A DNA stretch of 35,499 nucleotides from Kiritimatiellia bacterium. GTDB lineage: Bacteria; Verrucomicrobiota; Kiritimatiellia; JAQICX01. Where the stretch lies: NCBI GenBank assembly GCA_027858345.1, contig JAQICX010000243.1, positions 1-35,499 of the forward strand, given 5' to 3'. Shown in pieces: positions 1 through 28,546 of this stretch. Each line of letters starts with the position of its first letter. Positions within the stretch are counted from its first letter, which is position 1. The position numbers and the translations under genes were made by a program. Below the pieces are notes generated by a model. The model was not told the DNA's origin, did not search any database, and saw only the letters and a list, made by a program, of their open reading frames with translations.

Positions 1-221
1 AAGCTCTCTGGTCTAAAATCACTATCATTCTTAACCAAATCCATTTCAACCCACTGGTATTTTGAATATTTTTGTGTATAATCTAACTTGCGAAATGGTA
101 TAGGGTAAATTCTAATCCACTCGCCATTTTCTTTGACTCCAGCGGTGCATACCAATTCATCATATTTTGTAGATACTGTCGGGTATGTTTTAACGGTTAT
201 TAGAACTTTTGTTTTAGCCAT
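1..221 (-). CDS. Partial conserved hypothetical protein (MAKTKVLITVKTYPTVSTKYDELVCTAGVKENGEWIRIYPIPFRKL...), runs off window; 4-bp overlap with downstream DUF488 gene
   Basis: Own translation of reverse complement from ATG at 221 is open to the window edge; ATGA overlap with the 221-1108 stop. Confidence 0.75.
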   Translation of the reverse strand, partial: MAKTKVLITVKTYPTVSTKYDELVCTAGVKENGEWIRIYPIPFRKLDYTQKYSKYQWVEMDLVKNDSDFRPES

Positions 222-1108
222 CAGATATGCCTTAATTTATAATTAAACCTCTGCAATTTGGATATTGATTCAGCCAAGTGTTTTCTATGACATTGATTTA
301 TATTTGCCTCAAAACAAGTAAGAGCAATACGTTTTTCTTTTTTCAACAAACTCAATATCTCATTCTGTTCTTCACTTGCTTCAACAAGAACCGTCTGCTT
401 ATATTCATCAAAAAGTTTGTCGTAATCAGCCTGAGAGTTTAATGCACGTCTTTTGTCGGCATTAATACCCACTTCAGGAATATGTATAAATTTAATACCA
501 ACACCATTGCATGCTTTACTCAGTTGCGACTTGCTGAATCCATATTTCATACTGAATGAGTTTTTTCTCACATCACAGAGCAGTTTAATATCGTTCGCTA
601 AGAGCCTATTAATACAGCTTTCTAAAGATATACCTTCATATCCTATTGTAAACAATACGGTCTCACTACCAACTGTTTTTTGTTCTTCTACCTGCTTGAG
701 TTCTTCCTCGCTTAATAATTTTTTTGCAATAGTGCTGTTTATCGCATAGTATGGATATTTGTTATATGTAAATCTTATCAACTCATCTGTGCTTAATGAA
801 CCATATTGACTTTTTATATATTCAATGATGGATCTATCTTTTTCCTTGAGAGTGTTCAGGTAATCCTCATCTCCAATATATTTCCAACTTGTTTCGGTTT
901 CTGATACCAAGTTGTATTTCATTAAAGTGCATAAATCAGCATTAGCCTGGAAAGAAAAACAACCATATTTATAAGGCACAAAGTCATATGACTTTTTATT
1001 CTGATAGGTCGTCACAAGAAACAGTAGCTTCTGCAAAGTCAGCTTATCCAACTCTCCAGAAAACATCTGCAAAAGTGCCATTAATATTTTTCTACGGTAA
1101 TACATCAT
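221..1108 (-). CDS. DUF488-family protein with N-terminal SocA/Panacea-like domain
   Basis: C-terminal TIGYEGISLESCINRLLANDIKLLCDVRKNSFSMKYGFSK...ALTCFEANINQCHRKHLAE is DUF488-like; N-terminal KLTLQKLLFLVTTYQ...YDFVPYKYGCFS resembles SocA/Panacea-type domains. Confidence 0.8.
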   Translation of the reverse strand: MMYYRRKILMALLQMFSGELDKLTLQKLLFLVTTYQNKKSYDFVPYKYGCFSFQANADLCTLMKYNLVSETETSWKYIGDEDYLNTLKEKDRSIIEYIKSQYGSLSTDELIRFTYNKYPYYAINSTIAKKLLSEEELKQVEEQKTVGSETVLFTIGYEGISLESCINRLLANDIKLLCDVRKNSFSMKYGFSKSQLSKACNGVGIKFIHIPEVGINADKRRALNSQADYDKLFDEYKQTVLVEASEEQNEILSLLKKEKRIALTCFEANINQCHRKHLAESISKLQRFNYKLRHI

Positions 1109-1449: not shown

Positions 1450-2295
1450 CTAATAAATAGATATATTTGGTACTTTCAATTTAGGGGAGAAAAACATAAT
1501 TTCTTTTCCCTTTCTATTCTGTCCAATTGAATAACTTATATTAAATTCTCTATTTACAACCCCCGAATAAATATCCATAATTTCAGGTACATTGTCATAG
1601 CTTACAATCCAGTGACCACTTAATTGGCTAAGAATATCTGCAATTCTTACATGATCATCATGTTTATAAAAGTTTTTGTATAAACAGAATCCTTTTTCAT
1701 AATATGGAGGGTCTAAATAGATAATAGCATTTTTGAATTCATTTTTATTTTCCTGTAATAACGCAAGTGTATCTTGATTGTAAAGCTCGATTTTATCTTT
1801 ATATGTAGCTATTCTTTCAATTCTCTTTATAAGATTATTTTTATTAAATCGAGCATCAAGTTTATATTTACTTTTTTGTTCTTTACCACCTATGCAGCCT
1901 CCTGTTAAAATACCAGAACGATTACAACGATTTAAGAAAAAAGCAGAAAACCCTCGTTCTAGTTCAGTGTAGTCACATAAATTTTTATAAATATCCTTCT
2001 GTTTGTTCCATTCTGAAATTGTTACAGGTGTATCATGCACTTTCTGAATAAATTCATCAGTCTCGGTTATAATACTTTTCCAAAAAGAAAAAATAGCTTG
2101 GTCAATATCATTGATATGAATTCTAGAAACATATCCACCAAGCAACAAACCTAGCGCAACACCAGCACCACCTGCATATGGTTCCACATATGGACTATTT
2201 AAACAATTGTTTTCTTCAATAACTTTAATTATAAAGTCAAGTATTTTAGCTTTTCCACCAGGGTATCTTAATGGTGACAATCTTTTTAGTTTCAT
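1450..2295 (-). CDS. D12-class (Dam-family) adenine-specific DNA methyltransferase
   Basis: LRYPGGKAKILDFI, YVEPYAGGAGVALGLL and IIYLDPPYYEKG motifs. Confidence 0.92.
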   Translation of the reverse strand: MKLKRLSPLRYPGGKAKILDFIIKVIEENNCLNSPYVEPYAGGAGVALGLLLGGYVSRIHINDIDQAIFSFWKSIITETDEFIQKVHDTPVTISEWNKQKDIYKNLCDYTELERGFSAFFLNRCNRSGILTGGCIGGKEQKSKYKLDARFNKNNLIKRIERIATYKDKIELYNQDTLALLQENKNEFKNAIIYLDPPYYEKGFCLYKNFYKHDDHVRIADILSQLSGHWIVSYDNVPEIMDIYSGVVNREFNISYSIGQNRKGKEIMFFSPKLKVPNISIY

Positions 2296-3914
2296 TTTAC
2301 CACCTTTTGCTCAATAATCGGCAAGCTATTTTTTCTAGCAAGTTTGTTAAAAGTATCTATAAATTCGTTTCTAAAATCTTCAACCTGTTTGTTGTTTGCA
2401 TTCTTCCAGTAATTGAACATTCTAAATTGTTCTATTGTTTTTTTTTGGTCATGAAACCAATGACTATATCTATGACGTTCTGTAGCATCTCTGCTATACT
2501 TTTCTGAATGAGGTCCATTATCAATCAAAAAATATTTTTTTGTCATTCCTTTTTGCTCAAGTCCATCGACGTCCCAAAATTCACAATTAGCATTGTTTAG
2601 GTAATCAAACAAGACTTTTTCAGGACGTTGTGTGCCAATTAATGCAATAACGTTATTTTGGCTCACAAATTTGGGGTTATTTTTTTTGACATCTCCGTCT
2701 ACAACAAATAATACAGTTGAAAAATAAGCAGAATCTTCTTTTAAAAGTTTTGCTAAATCACCACATCCAAAATTTGCATTAACAAATTTTAATTTACCGG
2801 AATAGCCAAATATTAGTTTCTTAAAAAACCAACGGGTGTCATCATCTTCACTATAAACTAATATTTTAGATTTATTTTTATCATCTTGTGATAAGGTTAG
2901 TGCTAGGTTATTTCTAATGAGCTCAAACGGAGGATTATGATATATTTTTAAGTCAATGTTGGCATTAGAAATGAATATTAATTTATAATCTTGTGAAAAT
3001 CTAACATTGTTGTCGTATTTATCTGCAATGTATTCTAAAATTGATAAGCTATGAGAGGTAAATATAATCTGTAAATCATCTTGTTTTGCCTCATGAAATA
3101 GAAATTTAATTAGTTTTTGCTGAGCAATAGGATGTAAGGTTGCGTCTAATTCATCAATAATCAATAATCCTCCTTCCCAGTTTTCAACTTGAGAATGTAA
3201 TCTTCTAAAAGATAGTAATGATAATAAAATCTGTCCCAAATTATCTTGCCCTGCAGAGTTACATAAAGCATCATATTTATTGGTACTAATCCCTGTGAAG
3301 TTTGATTTGACCTCTTTTGTTTTCATATTAGAAATATCAATAATGTCATCTGGTATCGATAAAATTGTTTTATAATTTTCAGCAAACCATGTCTTTTCTT
3401 CTTCAGTTAACTCTAAACTGTCGTTTTCAAGAGTATTACTAGTTTCTCCAAGCGGATATAAGCGACTAAGACCAAGATACATAACAGGTAAGGTGTATTT
3501 TGCTGCTGTCCTTTTAGGTTTGCCTTTGTCATCATAAATGATATTTTGTTCTGAATCTCTTTGTTCGCGGTCGGGAATAATTCTAAATCGTTTGCCATTG
3601 CTTTGCCATGTTGAACGAAAGGTAGCGTGATCAGAAATTGTATCAAAACTATCAGGCAAACAAAAGTTAACCATACCTTTATGCTCTCCTGTTTTATCAA
3701 ATCCTGGCGAACCCTTAAAAATCTCAGAGAATTCAGTTCTGTACTGCTTGCCGAATATATTTTCTTGTTTGTATTCAACCATATTACCAAGGATTCCTAA
3801 TAACGTTGATTTTCCAACTGCATTATGTCCTGCAATTACCGTAATCCGTTTTCCAATTTCAAATTTTACATCCTTAAACAGTCTGAACTTTTCAATATAT
3901 AAGCTATGTATCAT
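2292..3914 (-). CDS. AAA ATPase of the OLD/AAA_21 type with TOPRIM-like C-terminal region
   Basis: Walker A GHNAVGKST, Walker B LLIIDELDATLHP, IIFTSHS; C-terminal KILVYSEDDDTRWF...VLFVVDGDV; 4-bp overlaps with both neighbours. Confidence 0.88.
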   Translation of the reverse strand: MIHSLYIEKFRLFKDVKFEIGKRITVIAGHNAVGKSTLLGILGNMVEYKQENIFGKQYRTEFSEIFKGSPGFDKTGEHKGMVNFCLPDSFDTISDHATFRSTWQSNGKRFRIIPDREQRDSEQNIIYDDKGKPKRTAAKYTLPVMYLGLSRLYPLGETSNTLENDSLELTEEEKTWFAENYKTILSIPDDIIDISNMKTKEVKSNFTGISTNKYDALCNSAGQDNLGQILLSLLSFRRLHSQVENWEGGLLIIDELDATLHPIAQQKLIKFLFHEAKQDDLQIIFTSHSLSILEYIADKYDNNVRFSQDYKLIFISNANIDLKIYHNPPFELIRNNLALTLSQDDKNKSKILVYSEDDDTRWFFKKLIFGYSGKLKFVNANFGCGDLAKLLKEDSAYFSTVLFVVDGDVKKNNPKFVSQNNVIALIGTQRPEKVLFDYLNNANCEFWDVDGLEQKGMTKKYFLIDNGPHSEKYSRDATERHRYSHWFHDQKKTIEQFRMFNYWKNANNKQVEDFRNEFIDTFNKLARKNSLPIIEQKVVK

Positions 3915-5194
3915 GAGATATCCTTTCCAAAATAGAATTCAATTATTTCGCCAACCATTATAGAACAACTTAAGATATCGTCATTAGAAACAACAATATT
4001 GCCATGTGCCATTTTCCCAAGTATACCTTCAAACCTATTAGTTTTGTTCAGCCAGTGCTCCGACAAAGCCAACGAATTAATCTGTGCTTTTGGTGCGTCA
4101 ATATCACGACATGCTAATTTAATAAAATCTTTATATATAGAATCTGAGCCTGCTAACTCTGTCATAATCTGTCTTGCTGCAACTTCCAACAATAACCTTA
4201 AAGACATTCCAACAATCATCAACGTAGAGTTGTCAGAGTCCCCTTTTTTATATATAGAATCAATTGTACAATACAAATCATTAACTCTCCCTGTCTTTAA
4301 TTTTAGTGTTCGTCCAAAAAGAGTTGCAGTAGACTTTGTTCGCTGTGTCTTTCTTGGAGTGGGCGTCGTTGTTTTATTAGTATTGCATAAGTTTACTTGG
4401 TGAGTGGCTTTAGCAGGATTGAATCTTTGAAGTTTAGCAGCTAGTTCTGGGTGATTAGCTATTATTGTTTTTTTTAATTGTCCTCTGTTCTCGCCACGTG
4501 TTGATATTTTCTTTTTGTTAACTACTTCAACAATAGTATGTAACAACTCTTGTTCAAATACTTTGTCATAATTTGAAATAACATTCTTGTTTTTATCAAC
4601 AGAAAAACCAATATCATTCAAGTTTTTTTCAGTTAGAACTTCAGTTTTAACAAACCCCTTGGTCATTTGTGGATTCGAGCTTATTAATCCAGTCTGTTCC
4701 TCAAATTTAATAAACAGGCTTGGGGCAAACCCTCTATGATTTAACAAAAAATAATCTCGTTCCAATGCGTTCCAACTGCCATTAGAGCTATGCTTTCGTT
4801 CTATATTTGTTAACGCAGTTTCTTTGTCACAAACATTACAAGGTATTTTGGTCAGTTGCTTTAACTCTTTTGGTTCATCATCAAAAAATAGTCCACCCTC
4901 AAGTTTTGAATATAATTCTCTGTTTTGTATGTACTTCAAAACGGAAATTCTTCTGTTGCCATCAAAAACAACCATTTCCCCATTGACTCTTACAACCGTT
5001 GGCAACTCACTGAAATCATAATGAGAGCCCATTTCTTTAATCAGATCATTTAACATCCACTTCGTATTATCATCATTTACAGCTCTTGAAATAACATCGA
5101 AATCGGTTAAATCTGTATCAACTGGATCTCGAGGATTCTCTGTCCACAGACTCAAATCTGATATATTAATTTCTTCTATTTCTTGCTTTCTCAT
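3911..5194 (-). CDS. ParB/Srx-like N-terminal domain protein with helical C-terminal domain
   Basis: INISDLSLWTENPRDP...LPTVVRVNGEMVVFDGNRRISVLKYIQN matches the ParB-like nuclease domain pattern. Confidence 0.82.
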   Translation of the reverse strand: MRKQEIEEINISDLSLWTENPRDPVDTDLTDFDVISRAVNDDNTKWMLNDLIKEMGSHYDFSELPTVVRVNGEMVVFDGNRRISVLKYIQNRELYSKLEGGLFFDDEPKELKQLTKIPCNVCDKETALTNIERKHSSNGSWNALERDYFLLNHRGFAPSLFIKFEEQTGLISSNPQMTKGFVKTEVLTEKNLNDIGFSVDKNKNVISNYDKVFEQELLHTIVEVVNKKKISTRGENRGQLKKTIIANHPELAAKLQRFNPAKATHQVNLCNTNKTTTPTPRKTQRTKSTATLFGRTLKLKTGRVNDLYCTIDSIYKKGDSDNSTLMIVGMSLRLLLEVAARQIMTELAGSDSIYKDFIKLACRDIDAPKAQINSLALSEHWLNKTNRFEGILGKMAHGNIVVSNDDILSCSIMVGEIIEFYFGKDIS

Positions 5195-5211: not shown

Positions 5212-6501
5212 TCACAACTCCCCGTTAAATGCTTTTTGTAAGATGCTCTTTTTTAACTCTTCAAGACTATCAAATTTTTGCTGATAAATCAATTCCAATT
5301 TTTTGCACTCTGTTCCTAAAGCATCAAGTTCTGTTACTATTCGTTTTTGCTCTAAAAGAGGTGGAAGGGCTATTTTATAGTTGCGCATAGATTTTAATGA
5401 AAAGTTTTTTATTGTTGCACCAGTTGATGCTTTAACCATGTTTTCAAAGAAAATAGGGCTTTGTACAAGATACTTGATATACTTTTTTTCAATGTTATCA
5501 TAAAAATTAATATAACAAGCACTTTTTCCTAGAATAATTGGTTCGTTATTATAAAATGCAACATTGCCTAGTGTTCCATTGATAGAGATAAGAACCGTGT
5601 TATTCATTAACTGTTTACAATGTTTTTTGTATTCTATTTCATTTACGCGTTTTGTGTTTTCCTTGATTTCAATTACTCCATCATTAAGATTATTTCCATT
5701 AATAAAAAAGTAATTTCCAGAAGAATCATATTTAGGAGTTCCATGCAAACCATCACCAATCTTACTTGATAACTCTTCAAAAGTTTTTTCTTTCCATCCC
5801 TTCGATTGGCTCAGGGTATCATCTCCAGTCTCAATTTTGGTGGCTGAGCTTGTCGAAGGGTCAAAGATGCTTTGCAGCTTTGATTGAAATAGTTCTTTGG
5901 CATTCTGTAAATTTTTTTCGGTAATATTTCGACTTCGCTCAATAACCGAAAAGGCTTCATCTAAAATAGATACTATGCGTTTTTGCTCAGGGAGTGGGGG
6001 AATTATAATATTTTGGGTTGCTAAATATTCAACAGGTATTCTCTTGTGACCAACAGCCCCTGTCATTTTCCTCTTTCCATCTGTTCTAATATAATCCCGT
6101 GATAAAAAATGATATATATATTCTGACATCACTTGTTCCGTTGGTCGAAAAACCATGTATTCACTGGAACCAAACCCAACTCCATTTTTTAGATTCTTGG
6201 CAATGCCTAATTTCCCATTTTCAAAACAAGGGGTAATCTTTGCAAGTAAAACATCGTTGTTCTCAAAATAAACATAGCCTTTATACACATCACTTAATGT
6301 TCTTGTTTGGTGTGCTTTAATATAGTGATTAAAAACTTGTAAGTCTGTCATAGGAAAGAATGACACTAAATCATTATCTTTTAATTTCTTTTTTACTTGT
6401 CCTTTCGAGGGCTTTATTTCACAAACATCCCCCAGATTTTTGATTTTCCATCCTTTTGGCAGGCTTGGTACATCGGTTTTTATATTTTCTATATTATTCA
6501 T
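5212..6501 (-). CDS. hsdS: Type I restriction-modification specificity subunit S
   Basis: Two target-recognition halves, each ending in PPLPEQKRIVSILDEAF / PPLLEQKRIVTELDAL motifs. Confidence 0.93.
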   Translation of the reverse strand: MNNIENIKTDVPSLPKGWKIKNLGDVCEIKPSKGQVKKKLKDNDLVSFFPMTDLQVFNHYIKAHQTRTLSDVYKGYVYFENNDVLLAKITPCFENGKLGIAKNLKNGVGFGSSEYMVFRPTEQVMSEYIYHFLSRDYIRTDGKRKMTGAVGHKRIPVEYLATQNIIIPPLPEQKRIVSILDEAFSVIERSRNITEKNLQNAKELFQSKLQSIFDPSTSSATKIETGDDTLSQSKGWKEKTFEELSSKIGDGLHGTPKYDSSGNYFFINGNNLNDGVIEIKENTKRVNEIEYKKHCKQLMNNTVLISINGTLGNVAFYNNEPIILGKSACYINFYDNIEKKYIKYLVQSPIFFENMVKASTGATIKNFSLKSMRNYKIALPPLLEQKRIVTELDALGTECKKLELIYQQKFDSLEELKKSILQKAFNGEL

Positions 6502-6867: not shown

Positions 6868-7071
6868 ATACCCCTCCCACCTCGCACGCGAGGTGACCTC
6901 CCCTAATTTAGGGGAGGAGCTTTGGCGAACTAAATTAGTTTGCCAGAAAACGGTTAAATTGCAACTTCAAAGCTAGCTGGTGAAGAGTTTTTCGGCACCA
7001 CCCTTGTTCGTAGCAATAGCTGCTTCCCTAAAATAGGGGAGCTGTCACGCAAAGCGTGACTGAGGGGTATT
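6868..7071. repeat. MITE-like element with perfect 10-bp terminal inverted repeats AATACCCCTC / GAGGGGTATT
   Basis: Direct reading; a partial adjacent copy ends at about 6836-6851 (GAGGGGATTCATTCCT). Confidence 0.7.
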
Positions 7072-7311
7072 CATTCCTGATTTTCTTTTGAAATTATCTT
7101 TCATTTTCAACTGCCCGATTTTTTCGGACACTTCACTACCTTCATCTTTCAGTTTCTTTTTTAAATCACTCCAATATTTCCTTGGGCGTGAATTTTCTGC
7201 TAAAATTGCTACAACATCAACAATTGAAAAATACCAAATTTCTTTTTCTTCATCCCAAAGAGTTCTTACCTTTTGCTTTTGAAATAACTGAATTTTGTTT
7301 TCTTTACTCAT
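7045..7311 (-). pseudogene. Truncated Bro-N-like protein; 3' end replaced by a dispersed repeat
   Basis: MSKENKIQLFQKQKVRTLWDEEKEIWYFSIVDVVAIL...RKYWSDLKKKLKDEGSEVSEKIGQLKMK is typical Bro-N N-terminus; last residues (MNTPQSRFA) are encoded by the repeat end at 7045-7071. Confidence 0.75.
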
Positions 7312-8351
7312 ATTACCTCCTCGTTAAGTTGGGTTTCGATCATATTTCTTAGTTCTTCTTTGTTTGGCAGATAGAGTTGGTATTTATTGACAAAAAGCTG
7401 TGACGAAACATTGTGCATTGCATATTGAATAAGTAGTTCGTCCTTTTCTTTTGCCAAAACAATTCCTATTGGTGGATTATCACCTTCAGTATTTTCTTCG
7501 TTTTCAAAATAGCCCAAATACATATTCATTTGACCAACATCTTCATAGCCAGCCTCTTCCCGCTTTAAATCAATTAGCACAAAGCACTTTAAGATTCGAT
7601 GATAAAACACCAAGTCCACGGCATGTATTCTGTTCCCAATTGGAACACGATATTGTCTGGCAATAAATGCAAAGCCTTTACCTAACTCAAGTAAGAAATC
7701 TTTCAGATGATCAATTATTCTATCTTCTAGTTCTTTTTCTGTATATTGGTGCTTTTCTGGTATTTTTAAAAAATCTAGAATATAGGGTTCTCGTATAATA
7801 TCTTCAGGCTTTTGAATAACAGCCCCTTTTTGTGACAACTCTAAAATACCTTTCTTATCTTTTGATGCCGCCAATCGGAGATATAAAGAGGACTTTTTCT
7901 GTCGAATCAGTTCTGTTGTACTCCACTTTTCATTAATAGTTTGGTTCAGATAAAACCCTCGTTCTAGATCATCAGAAATTTTCAAAAGTTCAACAAAATG
8001 AGTCCAACTCAAAAGGTGCGGAAGCTCCGCACCTTTTGGAAAAACAAGATAAAACTGTCTCATACGCTTGACATTACTAAGACTAAAACCTTTGCCATGT
8101 TGCATTTTTAAGTCTTTAGATAGCCTGTTTAATAATCCCTTTCCATATTCAGCCCGCTCTTTGCCTTGTTGTTCAAACTCAACAATATATTTGCCAATTC
8201 GCCAATAAGTGCCAACCATTTGTGAATTCACTGCTGCAATAGCTTCTGATTGTCCAGCAGTATATATTTCCGAAATAGTTGATACTAAATTATTGTAACT
8301 TTCCAGATTACTTTGTGTTCTATTGACCATATCACTCATAACATCCCCCAT
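7308..8351 (-). CDS. DUF1016/YhcG-like PDDEXK nuclease domain protein
   Basis: YWRIGKYIVEFEQQGKERAEYGKGLLNRLSKDL...; HAVDLVFYHRILKCFVLIDLK nuclease motif. A start at 8339 is possible. Confidence 0.88.
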   Translation of the reverse strand: MGDVMSDMVNRTQSNLESYNNLVSTISEIYTAGQSEAIAAVNSQMVGTYWRIGKYIVEFEQQGKERAEYGKGLLNRLSKDLKMQHGKGFSLSNVKRMRQFYLVFPKGAELPHLLSWTHFVELLKISDDLERGFYLNQTINEKWSTTELIRQKKSSLYLRLAASKDKKGILELSQKGAVIQKPEDIIREPYILDFLKIPEKHQYTEKELEDRIIDHLKDFLLELGKGFAFIARQYRVPIGNRIHAVDLVFYHRILKCFVLIDLKREEAGYEDVGQMNMYLGYFENEENTEGDNPPIGIVLAKEKDELLIQYAMHNVSSQLFVNKYQLYLPNKEELRNMIETQLNEEVI

Positions 8352-9040
8352 CTTCGACTTAGCTCAAAAGGTGCGGAAGTTCTGATAACAGCAGACAGCA
8401 TAGAAACACCTTGTTCTGTAAATGCATAAGGTTTGGCTCCACCAAAATACTTTGAAGATGGTATCACAGATTGTGATACCATGGACTCAATATCTGCATT
8501 ATTCAACTCAAACATAAAATCTGAAGGAAAGCGTTCAGTGTTACGTTTAACTGCCTGTTTCAAGGTTCGAGTTTCTGTCTGATAGAAATCAGCAAGGTCT
8601 CTATCCAACATTACCGCAACGCCTCTAATATAATAAATTCTATCACCTACAGTGTTGACTGATAGTTCTTTACCCAAGTAGACCTCTGTTACTATAGCCC
8701 TGTTTTCTTCTATAATTCTATCTGCCCAGACCCTAAATTGCTCTCTTTGATCTGAGTTCATTTTATATCCCACAGAATTGATAACATCGAGGTTGTAATA
8801 CTTAACATTGTATTTTTTTCCATCTGCGGCAGTTGTTCGGAATTTCCGAACAGCTGAAGCCTCGTCTAAGTCTTCAGATTTAAAAACATTGTTAATATGT
8901 TCACTAATATTAGCTTTACTGCTTTCAAATAAAGTTACAATCTGAGATTGTGTAAGCCAGACAGTCCCTTCCTCTAGTCTTACCTCTATTTTAATGGAAT
9001 TATCATCTTGTATGCTATATAGTTCTGTTTTATTTTTCAT
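8336..9040 (-). CDS. RhuM-like N-terminus fused to truncated ORF6N domain (chimeric)
   Basis: RhuM-like EGTVWLTQSQIVTLFESSKANISEHINNVF...NLDVINSVGYKMNS; ORF6N-like IYYIRGVAVMLDRDLADFYQTETRTLKQAVKRNTERFPSDFMFEL...YAFTEQGVSMLSAVIRT. Confidence 0.82.
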   Translation of the reverse strand: MKNKTELYSIQDDNSIKIEVRLEEGTVWLTQSQIVTLFESSKANISEHINNVFKSEDLDEASAVRKFRTTAADGKKYNVKYYNLDVINSVGYKMNSDQREQFRVWADRIIEENRAIVTEVYLGKELSVNTVGDRIYYIRGVAVMLDRDLADFYQTETRTLKQAVKRNTERFPSDFMFELNNADIESMVSQSVIPSSKYFGGAKPYAFTEQGVSMLSAVIRTSAPFELSRRWGML

Positions 9041-9368
9041 CTTCGACTCCGCTCAGATACCGTCGGTAGTATTTATAATTAGTTTTGTTTTTACATTCCG
9101 CAAGTTTATTCAAATCTTTGTCCATTCCATCTATTAAAGCTTCTTTCTTCTTCCTACTCCATCCTTGCACCTGTTTTTCCCGGTAGAAAGCATCATCTAT
9201 TCTTTGAAATTCTTCGCAATACACTAACTTTACAGGAAGACGACTCTTTGTATGCCTAGCACCATTTCCTTCTTGATGCTGTGCAATCCTTAGTTCAAGA
9301 TTATTAGTACTTCCTGTGTAATAGCTGCCATCAGCACATTCTAATATATACATCCAACCTTTTTTCAT
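9030..9368 (-). CDS. GIY-YIG nuclease family protein
   Basis: GWMYILECADGSYYTGSTNNLELRIAQHQEGNGARHTKSRLPVKLVY. Confidence 0.92.
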   Translation of the reverse strand: MKKGWMYILECADGSYYTGSTNNLELRIAQHQEGNGARHTKSRLPVKLVYCEEFQRIDDAFYREKQVQGWSRKKKEALIDGMDKDLNKLAECKNKTNYKYYRRYLSGVEDEK

Positions 9369-9438: not shown

Positions 9439-11058
9439 TCATAGCATCTCCGCAATTGAGTTTAGAATCTCTGCACTCTCTGCATCAAGTTTTTTCATCG
9501 CTTCAAGAATTTTTTGAGGCGACCTCAGCGGAGCTTCTTCCGGAGCATTTGGATTTTTAACAGAAAGATCGACTTCGGCAAGCTCAGTCACCTGACTTCG
9601 GCTATGCTCAACCACCTGATTTCGGCTACGCTCAGTCACCTGACTTCGGCTACGCTCAACCACTATCTTTGTATCAATATTCCATGAATTTGGTGTTTCA
9701 GGTCCCCCGGTAGCTGAGTTTACCGAAGCTTGCAGTTCGACAAATTCTTCAAGGTCTTTTTCGCTTAGCGGATTCGTCTTGCCAAGGTTTCTGTCCAAAT
9801 TTAATTGGTAGAACCATGTCTTTTTAGTTGGTTTTCCTTTTTCAAAGAAGAGAACAACAGTTTTCACTCCTGCACCGGTAAATGTTCCGCCGGGCAGATC
9901 TAAGACAGTGTGAAGATTGCATGAAGAAAGCAGTTCTTTTCGTAAGGCAACAGATGCGTTATCTGTATTGCTTAAAAATGTATTTTTGATGACCACACCA
10001 GCTCTGCCACCAGCCTTTAGCATCTTAATGAAATGCTGCAGAAATAGCGATGCGGTTTCGCCAGTTCTGATTGGGAAATTCTGCTGAACTTCAGCTCTTT
10101 CCTTACCCCCAAACGGTGGATTGGCCAAAATAATGTTGTAACGGTCTTTTTCCTGAATATCAAAAATATTTTCAGCAAGTGTATTGGTATGGACAATGTT
10201 TGGTGCCTCAATTCCATGAAGAATCATATTCATGGTGCCAATGATATATGCCATGGCTTTCTTTTCTTTTCCATAAAAAGTTTTTTTCTGCAGAGTCTCG
10301 GTGTCAGCAGTAGATAATCCTTTTGAGGTGGCGGTGGCTGAGCCTGTCGAAGCCGAGCTTGTCGAAGTCAGATAGTCAAATGCTTCAACCAAAAAGCCTG
10401 CGGAACCCACTGCACCATCATAAATTGTATCGCCAATTTTTGGATCAACAACTTTGACAATGGTTCTGATGAGGGGACGTGGTGTATAATATTCGCCACC
10501 ATTACGTCCGGCATTACCCATGTTTTTAATTTTTGATTCATAGAGATGACTCATCTCATGTTTTTCTTTATGGGTTCTGAAACGTAGTTCATCAATCAGA
10601 TTTACAACTTCTCTTAAATTGTATCCGCTCTGGACTCGATTTTTCAACTCACTGAAAATTTCACCAATTTTATATTCAATGGTGTCTGGATGTTCTGCAC
10701 TAGTTTTGAAAAGCTTAAGGTAGGGGAATAGTTTGATGTTCACAAACTCTACCAGATCATCACCTGTCAGAGCGTTGTTGTCCACTTCGACAAGCTCAGT
10801 GAACGTTCCATCTTTATTTGTGCGAGTACTTTTAAGTTTGGGAGCAGCCCATGTTGACCATTGGAATTCGGGAGAGATTATTTGTTCATACTCTTTGCCT
10901 GTGAGTTCGGCAGCTGTGGCTTTATCCTTTTCAAGGTCGTCAAGATATTTCAGAAACAGAATCCATGATGTCTGTTCAACATAATCCAGTTCACTACCGC
11001 AACCTGCATCTTTATGCAATATATCATCAATATTTTTGAAAGTCTGTTCAAACATCAT
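9439..11058 (-). CDS. hsdM: Type I restriction-modification DNA methyltransferase subunit M
   Basis: GRNGGEYYTPRPLIRTIV, YDGAVGSAGFLVEAF, NIILANPPFGGKE; contains several in-frame short-repeat insertions. Confidence 0.95.
   Translation of the reverse strand: MMFEQTFKNIDDILHKDAGCGSELDYVEQTSWILFLKYLDDLEKDKATAAELTGKEYEQIISPEFQWSTWAAPKLKSTRTNKDGTFTELVEVDNNALTGDDLVEFVNIKLFPYLKLFKTSAEHPDTIEYKIGEIFSELKNRVQSGYNLREVVNLIDELRFRTHKEKHEMSHLYESKIKNMGNAGRNGGEYYTPRPLIRTIVKVVDPKIGDTIYDGAVGSAGFLVEAFDYLTSTSSASTGSATATSKGLSTADTETLQKKTFYGKEKKAMAYIIGTMNMILHGIEAPNIVHTNTLAENIFDIQEKDRYNIILANPPFGGKERAEVQQNFPIRTGETASLFLQHFIKMLKAGGRAGVVIKNTFLSNTDNASVALRKELLSSCNLHTVLDLPGGTFTGAGVKTVVLFFEKGKPTKKTWFYQLNLDRNLGKTNPLSEKDLEEFVELQASVNSATGGPETPNSWNIDTKIVVERSRSQVTERSRNQVVEHSRSQVTELAEVDLSVKNPNAPEEAPLRSPQKILEAMKKLDAESAEILNSIAEML
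9571..9664 (-). repeat. Four tandem 23/24-bp units (GACTTCGGCTACGCTCAxyCACCT) inside hsdM, encoding VVERSRSQVTERSRNQVVEHSRSQVTELAEV
   Basis: Direct reading; in frame with hsdM. Confidence 0.9.
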
Positions 11059-11672: not shown

Positions 11673-12563
11673 CTATTTGGCTTCCTTTGTGTCTTGCCTA
11701 TCCCGTCGCGTGTAGAACCGCAGAGACTCCGCGAAGCCGTCGAACCCTGGGAAGAGCGTGGCCTCGTGGATGTTCATATCGTGTAAGTCCATTAGTAACT
11801 TGAAGCGTTCCTCCTTGGGTAAGATGCACTTAATAATCCAGTGACTCCGTAACTTCGAACTATTGTGTAAATCCGAATCATAGGGCTCAGCGTTTGACGG
11901 GACGTTCAGGTTGTGAAGTCCCTCGGCCTCGACCATTCTCTCAATATTCTCCTCGATTGTTCGTGTGGTGTCGCAGGGGAATAGGAACAGGCCTTGCTGC
12001 GATTCCTGTCGCTCATTAGAGTGCGTCGGTACTATTGGGAACGCCAACGCGCCTTCTGCCTTTCTAGTGAGAAACTCATTGGCCTTGGTGTGCATTGCGC
12101 TATGGAAATCGAGTGCCTGGAAGGCAGGATCGATATCGAGACCAAAACGTGTAGTAGCTGATTCCCTGAACTGCTTCCAGTTGAAGGCCCAGATCGCAAA
12201 GTCTCCCTCGCCCTCGCATGCAGCGAAGAAGGCGGCAACAGGAAATGAAAACGTGCAATCGAGAAGCCGCGTCGGAGCACCGTGGTGTTGCATGAGCGCG
12301 AGCCATTCGAGTGGATCGTTGTCTGCCGGGGAGTGTGTCAGGTAGTTATGAGCATACCCGCAGAATTTTCTCAGCATCCAGCGCTCCGTATGATCCCAAT
12401 CCCATGAAGAGCCGTGGTCAACTCCGATATTTCGCTCCAGCGACGATGTTAGGGACCAACTGTCGCAAGACTGTCCGCGGTAGAACCAGTTATCCAGGCT
12501 GCGGCCAAAGCTGAACAGGTCATTCCAAGAGTGAAACCTAATCGCTGCGAATTTTGTTGTCAT
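11673..12563 (-). CDS. FRG-domain protein
   Basis: FHSWNDLFSFGRSLDNWFYRGQSCDSWSLTSSLER...WLALMQHHGAPTRLLDCTFSFPVAAFFA. Confidence 0.85.
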   Translation of the reverse strand: MTTKFAAIRFHSWNDLFSFGRSLDNWFYRGQSCDSWSLTSSLERNIGVDHGSSWDWDHTERWMLRKFCGYAHNYLTHSPADNDPLEWLALMQHHGAPTRLLDCTFSFPVAAFFAACEGEGDFAIWAFNWKQFRESATTRFGLDIDPAFQALDFHSAMHTKANEFLTRKAEGALAFPIVPTHSNERQESQQGLFLFPCDTTRTIEENIERMVEAEGLHNLNVPSNAEPYDSDLHNSSKLRSHWIIKCILPKEERFKLLMDLHDMNIHEATLFPGFDGFAESLRFYTRRDRQDTKEAK

Positions 12564-27617: not shown

Positions 27618-27779
27618 TTATCTCTTTCTTGTAGCTCTATATAATGAAGACAAGAAACAGACGTAGCTATGATAAATTTCTTTAATCTTTGAGATAGATT
27701 CATTTTGATTTTTTGCATCACCCTCAATTATTTTAGATAGAAACTCTTGTGCTTCAATTTTGTATGTTTTGTCACTCAT
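27618..27779 (-). CDS. DpnD-like small protein (53 aa), overlapping the DpnI homologue by 4 bp; absent from the ORF track
   Basis: MSDKTYKIEAQEFLSKIIEGDAKNQNESISKIKEIYHSYVCFLSSLYRATRKR resembles the YKVEIxExLSRxVEVEAxxxxEAIxKV pattern of DpnD/PcfM proteins; ATGA overlap. Confidence 0.6.
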   Translation of the reverse strand: MSDKTYKIEAQEFLSKIIEGDAKNQNESISKIKEIYHSYVCFLSSLYRATRKR

Positions 27780-28546
27780 TGTTCAATTTTTCGATAGTTA
27801 CCACGCTTCGCAAATTCAATAATTCCTTTATCTCTCAAAATTTGTAATTGTTGTCTTATTTTGTCTTTTACGAAGTTGTTATTAGGATATTTTATCTTTA
27901 ATTCCTTCTCGAATACGTAAACTTCCTCAAGAGAGAAATCAGTTTTATTAATTCTATCAATACACCTCATTACATCTAAAATCCAACCTTTTGAGGAAGG
28001 TTTTTTCTCTCTTAAAAAAAGAGTCTTTTCAAAAGCTTCTTTGACAATATTTGGGTTAATGACTTGAGAGTTTTTAACTAAAAAAATTTTGCCTGCATTT
28101 GTGATTCTTGAAATATCTATATTGCAACCTATCCACCCCGCTCGTCTGGCAGTTTCGTTGAGAGGAGGTCGCTCAATAATTATATCTTTAGTAAAAAAAT
28201 GTTTAGGAATAATTAAAAAATTATCAACTGACCACTGTTTAGAATAAGTCAGCAAGAAAAAATTCGGATTGTTATCAGAGTTTATTCTATCTATCATTGT
28301 TGAATAAGCACCATCAGTAATCGTGCTTGATAATTTGCCGTTTTTACTTTTTAATTCAAATTCTTCTTTGCAATTATTACAATAAAAGTCGGCAACAGGT
28401 TTATTGTTTTCAAAGTCAGTTAAAGTAATTTCACCACAATTTGGACAATAACCATTGTTTTTTACCCAATTTTCTGTTAGTACTCGGGCAATCTGTGATT
28501 TGTTTGAATAACCCTCTGCTTTTTTTATGTTAAAAGTTAGCTTCAT
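27776..28546 (-). CDS. dpnC: DpnI-like methyl-directed restriction endonuclease
   Basis: YCPNCGEITLTDFENNKPVADFYCNNCKEEFELKSKNGKLSSTITDGAYSTMIDRINSDNNPNFFLLTYSK...TARRAGWIGCNIDIS...IRQQLQILRDKGIIEF closely matches the recalled DpnI sequence. Confidence 0.95.
   Translation of the reverse strand: MKLTFNIKKAEGYSNKSQIARVLTENWVKNNGYCPNCGEITLTDFENNKPVADFYCNNCKEEFELKSKNGKLSSTITDGAYSTMIDRINSDNNPNFFLLTYSKQWSVDNFLIIPKHFFTKDIIIERPPLNETARRAGWIGCNIDISRITNAGKIFLVKNSQVINPNIVKEAFEKTLFLREKKPSSKGWILDVMRCIDRINKTDFSLEEVYVFEKELKIKYPNNNFVKDKIRQQLQILRDKGIIEFAKRGNYRKIEQ

Follow-up and report, generated by a model that had tools for sequence, protein, structure and literature searches.

Three overlapping genes lie directly behind an hsdS gene of a Kiritimatiellia bacterium, and the question they raise is whether they constitute one anti-phage system or a combination of separable parts. 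Their products are a ParB/Srx-like protein, an OLD-type ATP-binding cassette (ABC) ATPase with a TOPRIM domain, and a D12-class adenine DNA methylase, and they are located in the window analysed here, which is the whole stretch of 35,499 nucleotides at positions 1 to 35,499 of contig JAQICX010000243.1 (assembly GCA_027858345.1). The reading that we favour, to which we give about even confidence, is that the trio is a methylase-based anti-phage module of the PD-λ-5 type joined by a separable OLD-family effector that docks onto methylase systems. The ATPase is proposed to be a separable second effector because the ParB-like gene with D12, and the ATPase gene with D12, each occur as pairs on their own and because the ATPase is exchanged among trios.

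Organization of the three-gene locus

The initial annotation of the window, made from the letters alone, had described three coupled open reading frames (ORFs) starting 17 bp after hsdS, and the ORF calls agree with it at every position.

1450..2295, minus strand: D12-class adenine DNA methylase gene, 281 amino acids, PD-Lambda-5_B type, PF02086
2292..3914, minus strand: OLD-type ABC-ATPase and TOPRIM gene, a single chain of 540 amino acids, phrog_3940 family
3911..5194, minus strand: ParB/Srx-like gene, 427 amino acids, PD-Lambda-5_A type (ORF call, PADLOC and fold match)
3911..3914, minus strand: ATGA overlap of the ParB-like stop and the ATPase start (from ORF coordinates)
2292..2295, minus strand: ATGA overlap of the ATPase stop and the D12 start (from ORF coordinates)
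5212..6501, minus strand: hsdS, directly upstream, context outside the trio (PF01420, 1.6e-35)

All three ORFs of the trio are full-length with ATG starts, and both junctions are 4-bp overlaps. Since only 17 bp separates the end of hsdS at 5212 from the ATG of the ParB-like gene, the trio is probably read on the hsdS transcript. Promoter-like matches around the trio show no excess over shuffled sequence.

The predicted proteins

The conserved motifs of the three proteins are located as follows.

3807..3830, minus strand: Walker A of the ATPase, GHNAVGKS, residues 29–36; G29, N31 and K35 at least 98% conserved in 122 relatives
3150..3167, minus strand: Walker B of the ATPase, LLIIDE, residues 250–255; D254 and E255 100% conserved
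2847..2849, minus strand: TOPRIM E356, first metal-binding motif, after the model strand 351–355; 100% in 122 relatives
2691..2699, minus strand: TOPRIM D406-G-D408, the DxD motif, after the model strand 402–405; both Asp 100%
4949-4960, minus strand: GNRR of the ParB-like protein, residues 79–82, invariant
1702-1713, minus strand: DPPY of the D12 methylase, invariant in 101 relatives

Judged from its sequence and model, the middle protein is a single-chain OLD-type ABC-ATPase with Walker A and B, signature and H-switch, followed by a TOPRIM domain, and is a predicted nuclease. Pfam recognizes AAA_15 (1.8e-17) and AAA_21 (7.2e-13) in it and does not detect the C-terminal TOPRIM. The PHROGs family phrog_3940, of unknown function, covers the protein end to end (8.5e-126 over residues 1–528); no model of PADLOC-DB 2.0.0 does so, the best being generic ATPase matches near 1e-20. 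The AlphaFold model, for which rows from phage and plasmid records were left out of the alignment, is confident with a predicted local distance difference test score (pLDDT) of 87, and its Foldseek rank 1 is the Thermus OLD nuclease 6p74 with E 3.2e-13 over 528 aligned columns, with retron-Eco8 and GajA ranking shortly after. Among 122 non-redundant relatives K35, S220, G222, D254, E255 and H288 are at least 99% conserved and the TOPRIM acids E356, D357, D406 and D408 are invariant. The OLD-like ATPase-TOPRIM call of the initial annotation is thus borne out by domain matches, model and fold search, and the acidic residues (E and DxD) that it expected are present in the alignment; a search for DUF4435, also suggested there, gave no match. 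In three loci (L005:5965-8624, L008:6001-8499 and L068:7132-9560) the ATPase gene is split or truncated beside an intact D12 gene, as if the effector were lost more readily.

The methylase is matched by PF02086 at 7.1e-22, in agreement with the D12 call made at the outset, and by the PADLOC model PD-Lambda-5_B at 1.3e-119 over residues 4–278 of 281. A full-length and apparently intact DpnI gene is located in the same window (27776-28546, minus strand; PF06044 at 6.4e-79 and DpnI_C at 9.1e-35). DpnI is an endonuclease that depends on G6mATC, so if the gene is active the D12 enzyme cannot methylate GATC and the host should lack GATC methylation, which argues, on that condition, for a target site other than GATC.

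For the ParB-like protein, 20 PD-Lambda-5_A models of PADLOC give matches, the best at 2.9e-14 covering the N-terminal residues 6–135 and others reaching residue 281 or 406. All 27 members of the ParB alignment match PD-Lambda-5_A, with a top value of 6.6e-223, and N20, R22 and the GNRR at 79–82 are invariant among these 27 relatives. The fold matches nucleotide-bound ParB structures and sulfiredoxin with a probability up to 0.99, although the E value is modest (2e-3). The ParB/Srx assignment of the initial annotation therefore holds by the conservation of GNRR, the fold match and one of the 27 relatives that is matched by PF02195, but a Pfam search detected no ParB/Srx domain in the window protein itself. 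Since tblastn with the window protein against plasmids and phages gave no match, closer relatives were taken as queries. The structure of both C-termini had also been pointed to as informative: the TOPRIM of the ATPase is confidently modelled, but the C-terminus of the ParB-like protein is a helical domain with weak, non-significant matches to HEPN-like folds. HEPN catalysis was rejected for this domain, on the non-significant matches and on the lack of an Rx4-6H motif at the conserved histidine.

Distribution of the trio and of two-gene cassettes

Genome and viral collections were scanned with the ATPase alignment and genes were then called around each match. The scans were driven by baits with at most 80 loci each, and all counts are of sampled loci. 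With a single ATPase sequence as query the viral scan gave no matches, and with the alignment it succeeded. A D12 gene is found within three genes of the ATPase in 154 of the 169 ATPase loci sampled, mostly without a ParB-like gene and often in phages, and the two-gene cassette of ATPase and D12 is the commonest form. Thirty-two loci have the complete trio, arranged as ParB-D12-ATPase, ATPase-ParB-D12, ParB-ATPase-D12 or D12-ParB-ATPase or in convergent forms, and by record titles these belong to Bacteroidota, Firmicutes, Proteobacteria, Melainabacteria and viral contigs. A trio that recurs in 32 loci with its genes variously ordered goes far beyond what chance would give, and the trio is conserved away from hsdMS, a point that the initial annotation had suggested checking. 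The closest relative, L038 in Portibacter marinus with 60% identity over the ATPase, has no ParB-like gene and retains the 4-bp overlap of ATPase and D12 (3682-3685).

A scan of viral contigs with the D12 alignment recovered 46 members of the family, 27 beside a ParB-like gene alone, 14 beside an ATPase alone, one beside both and four beside neither (one of these at a contig edge, three low-scoring). With 42 of the 46 adjoining one or both partners, this methylase subfamily is largely dedicated to them. An integrase is encoded within four genes in 32 of the 79 viral loci without ParB, and annotated examples include a Streptococcus phage and a Vibrio phage with the trio, in which the ParB-like gene is split in two. 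In the homologue of an E. coli P2 prophage, ParB and D12 adjoin the portal gene and an ATPase is absent. Two P2-like phages (L198:4992-8028 and L199:228-3266) carry a ParB-like protein, a 330-340 amino acid protein of unknown function and, in convergent orientation, a different type of DNA methylase (BspRI-like by annotation in L199); these are possibly a PD-λ-5 relative with a swapped methylase.

Fifteen ATPase loci are without D12. Five of these ATPases are in other restriction-modification (RM) operons, four loci are cut by a contig end, and around the remaining six no methylase was found, the ATPase of one of them being truncated; the expectation that an ATPase without D12 always has another methylase is thus only partly true. 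In type I operons the ATPase is located between hsdS and hsdR (L078) or beside hsdR, hsdS and hsdM (L114). At L074:215-3552, L108:605-3992 and L111:3349-7117 it is tightly clustered with an NgoPII-type endonuclease and a C5 methylase, and here a whole type II RM system has an OLD protein joined to it. Clusters of a DrmD-like SNF2 helicase, the ATPase-TOPRIM, D12 and a type III methylase are found at L105, L106, L112 and L116, which can form one group on the ATPase tree, with weak support. In L083:7998-14128 and L094:7998-14255 the ATPase and D12 occur with a HerA-like protein, and an unmatched protein of 470-490 amino acids replaces ParB.

Probably different histories of the components

In the trios the pairwise distances of ParB and D12 are correlated, with r 0.80 and 0.72 in two runs (p 0.0002), whereas for the ATPase versus ParB or D12 r is only 0.06–0.22 and the rank correlations are slightly negative. 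On the D12 tree the label "both partners" has to change no fewer than 14 times, and the same minimum of 14 holds for the trio label on the ATPase tree. The ATPase is frequently exchanged among trios, and ParB and D12 are co-inherited. Most members of the clade around the window ATPase are two-gene cassettes from phages and genomes, whereas the window ParB groups with four Bacteroidota trios. The window trio thus appears to have been assembled from parts with different pasts, its ParB subfamily having one history and its ATPase lineage another.

Possible function and alternative explanations

By the favoured reading, the D12 enzyme would mark host DNA at a non-GATC site, and the ParB/Srx-fold protein should be its co-inherited partner, likely a recognition or restriction factor, the pair being equivalent to PD-λ-5. 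The ATPase-TOPRIM protein, docked onto such a methylase-based system, would stay silent as long as the partner system marks and polices DNA normally, and upon infection the ATPase head might let the TOPRIM nuclease attack nucleic acid, either as a back-up or as an abortive response. That the trio defends, that there is a methylation mark, and how the TOPRIM step is gated and what it targets are what we infer here, and the data are compatible both with methylation-blocked DNA cleavage and with a guard or abortive role of the ATPase-TOPRIM. In a wider and more tentative form, which may well be wrong, the phrog_3940 proteins would make up a class of OLD effectors that is missing from the catalogues and can join DNA-methylase systems of many kinds: PD-λ-5, the lone D12 of prophages, type I and NgoPII-type systems, and DrmD/type III-like clusters. 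They would switch on once immunity based on methylation is overcome or blocked, acting as a general methylation-linked guard and not as a dedicated restriction enzyme.

It is rather unlikely that the locus is instead an RM system in its own right, with the OLD-type ATPase-TOPRIM as restriction nuclease, D12 as its cognate protecting methylase and ParB as accessory or regulator. Two-gene cassettes being commonest, often near phage integrases, would suit such a system, as would the co-divergence of ATPase and D12 in these pairs and the damaged ATPases beside intact D12 genes at L005, L008 and L068, expected for a costly nuclease; the ATPase, however, is also present in operons already equipped with a restriction enzyme and an unrelated methylase (the NgoPII type with a C5 methylase; HsdR), hardly co-diverges with D12 in trios, and is in a few cases intact with no methylase found nearby. 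The model of the initial annotation can be taken as a complex of three proteins that all need one another, with ParB as the sensor of phage DNA or a nucleotide that triggers the ATPase-TOPRIM, and with D12 marking self. Two-gene subsets are so widespread (ParB with D12 in 27 viral loci, ATPase with D12 in most loci), with L038 lacking ParB and the ATPase exchanged between trios, that we regard this model as improbable in spite of the tight translational coupling in the window and the 32 trio loci. ParB and D12 diverge together and are also found where the ATPase is missing, and the ATPase mostly pairs with D12 without ParB, so that one tight unit is unlikely. There is only a slight chance that two or three independent defence genes were packed into an island beside hsdMS with no joint function: a window rich in defence-like genes (hsdM, hsdS, YhcG, FRG, DpnI) and the varying order and orientation of the trio, convergent forms included, would be expected then, but not a D12 gene within three genes of the ATPase in 154 of 169 loci from several bacterial phyla and phages, nor D12 tracking its partner in divergence, nor the 4-bp overlaps shared by the window and L038.

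Several observations weigh against a PD-λ-5-type module with a docking effector. In pairs without ParB the ATPase and D12 diverge together (r 0.45, p 0.0002), as a dedicated restriction pair would be expected to do more than a free plug-in, and distances between ATPases approach saturation, which could lower the ATPase correlations and limits what can be concluded about histories. Intact ATPases with no methylase gene found nearby are present at L049, L075, L087, L101 and L189. Compared with the other members, the window ParB is a much weaker match to PD-Lambda-5_A, mostly at its N-terminus, and literature searches found no wet-lab data on any trio or ATPase-D12 pair. Nor did these searches find a description of the ATPase-D12 pair, although a newer defence catalogue may already list it.

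PD-λ-5 defends, yet its mechanism has been described only as RM-like and abortive infection (Abi)-like, and from the trio it is seen that an OLD-type protein without a dedicated model in PADLOC-DB 2.0.0 is a second and very common partner of its methylase. If the favoured reading is true, the two-gene cassette of many phages is a defence or exclusion system, and the gating of an OLD nuclease by DNA methylation, or a guard role towards RM, becomes directly testable.

Genes surrounding the trio

The window holds hsdM and hsdS, and type I neighbours are seen again at L005, L078, L093 and L114. No hsdR was found in the window; its base 1 is also the end of the contig, so that part of the locus may be missing there. 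HsdR loci are present elsewhere in the genome, one of them within its own hsdMS operon, and may or may not belong with the hsdMS beside the trio. HsdM (9439-11058, minus strand) contains a repetitive insert, VTERSRNQVVEHSRSQVTELAEVD, as though a repeat element had been inserted in frame. Between hsdM and hsdS (7045-9368, minus strand) there are a Bro-N fragment, a YhcG/DUF1016 nuclease, an ORF6N/RhuM protein and a GIY-YIG gene, several of which match the PADLOC candidates PDC-S02, S05 and S13, and upstream of hsdM a defence-like FRG-domain protein is encoded (11673-12563, minus strand). The gene at 221-1108 (minus strand) has a SocA/Panacea-like N-terminus fused to DUF488 and matches the PADLOC candidate PDC-M19A at 3.7e-126. 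It was considered as a fourth component and rejected, as no homologue is found near any other sampled trio or pair.

Comparison with known systems

The initial annotation did not recognize the combination as a named system. This is true of the ATPase, for which no PADLOC family extends end to end, but the ParB-like and D12 proteins are the A and B components of PD-λ-5 in PADLOC. A functional selection in E. coli brought PD-λ-5 to light, which protected that host and affected every panel phage except one (Vassallo 2022, PMC9519451). It was tested in an mrr-deleted host, and the authors describe it as a compact RM+Abi system (PMC9519451). The mrr deletion suggests that its methylase is active. 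The ParB and D12 copy in the E. coli P2 prophage is likely the very system tested. The window resembles PD-λ-5 in having A and B in one gene cluster and co-inherited, and differs in the ATPase-TOPRIM gene between them, which the E. coli homologue lacks, and in its divergent A protein.

PARIS (AriA/AriB) also combines an OLD-type ATPase with TOPRIM, and such modules occur beside RM and bacteriophage exclusion (BREX) systems (PMC12839542). In PARIS, however, these are two proteins or an AriAB fusion with no dedicated methylase, whereas the window has no separate TOPRIM gene, and AriAB matches the window ATPase (1.2e-17) in partial stretches only. Retron I-B has a related protein (ATPase-Toprim_I-B, 2.2e-20), yet no reverse transcriptase is found among the genes scanned around the trio, and of Menshen NsnB alone matches (2.7e-20 over 1–317), with NsnA and NsnC not found alongside it. 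The phrog_3940 family matches the ATPase over its whole length but is a sequence family without a described system or function.

The closest fold match is to the OLD nucleases (Thermus OLD 6p74; GajA of Gabija), which share the single-chain ABC-ATPase and TOPRIM with E and DxD. They differ in that the partner of the window ATPase is a DNA methylase, and the identity to solved OLD proteins in fold alignments is at most 18%. In Gabija, GajA is followed by GajB, a UvrD-like helicase, whereas no helicase is found among the genes scanned around the trio. In PrrC-type guards of RM systems an ABC-type ATPase effector is encoded inside a type I RM operon, with an anticodon-nuclease domain instead of TOPRIM; the ATPase genes of L078 and L114 are likewise located within type I operons.

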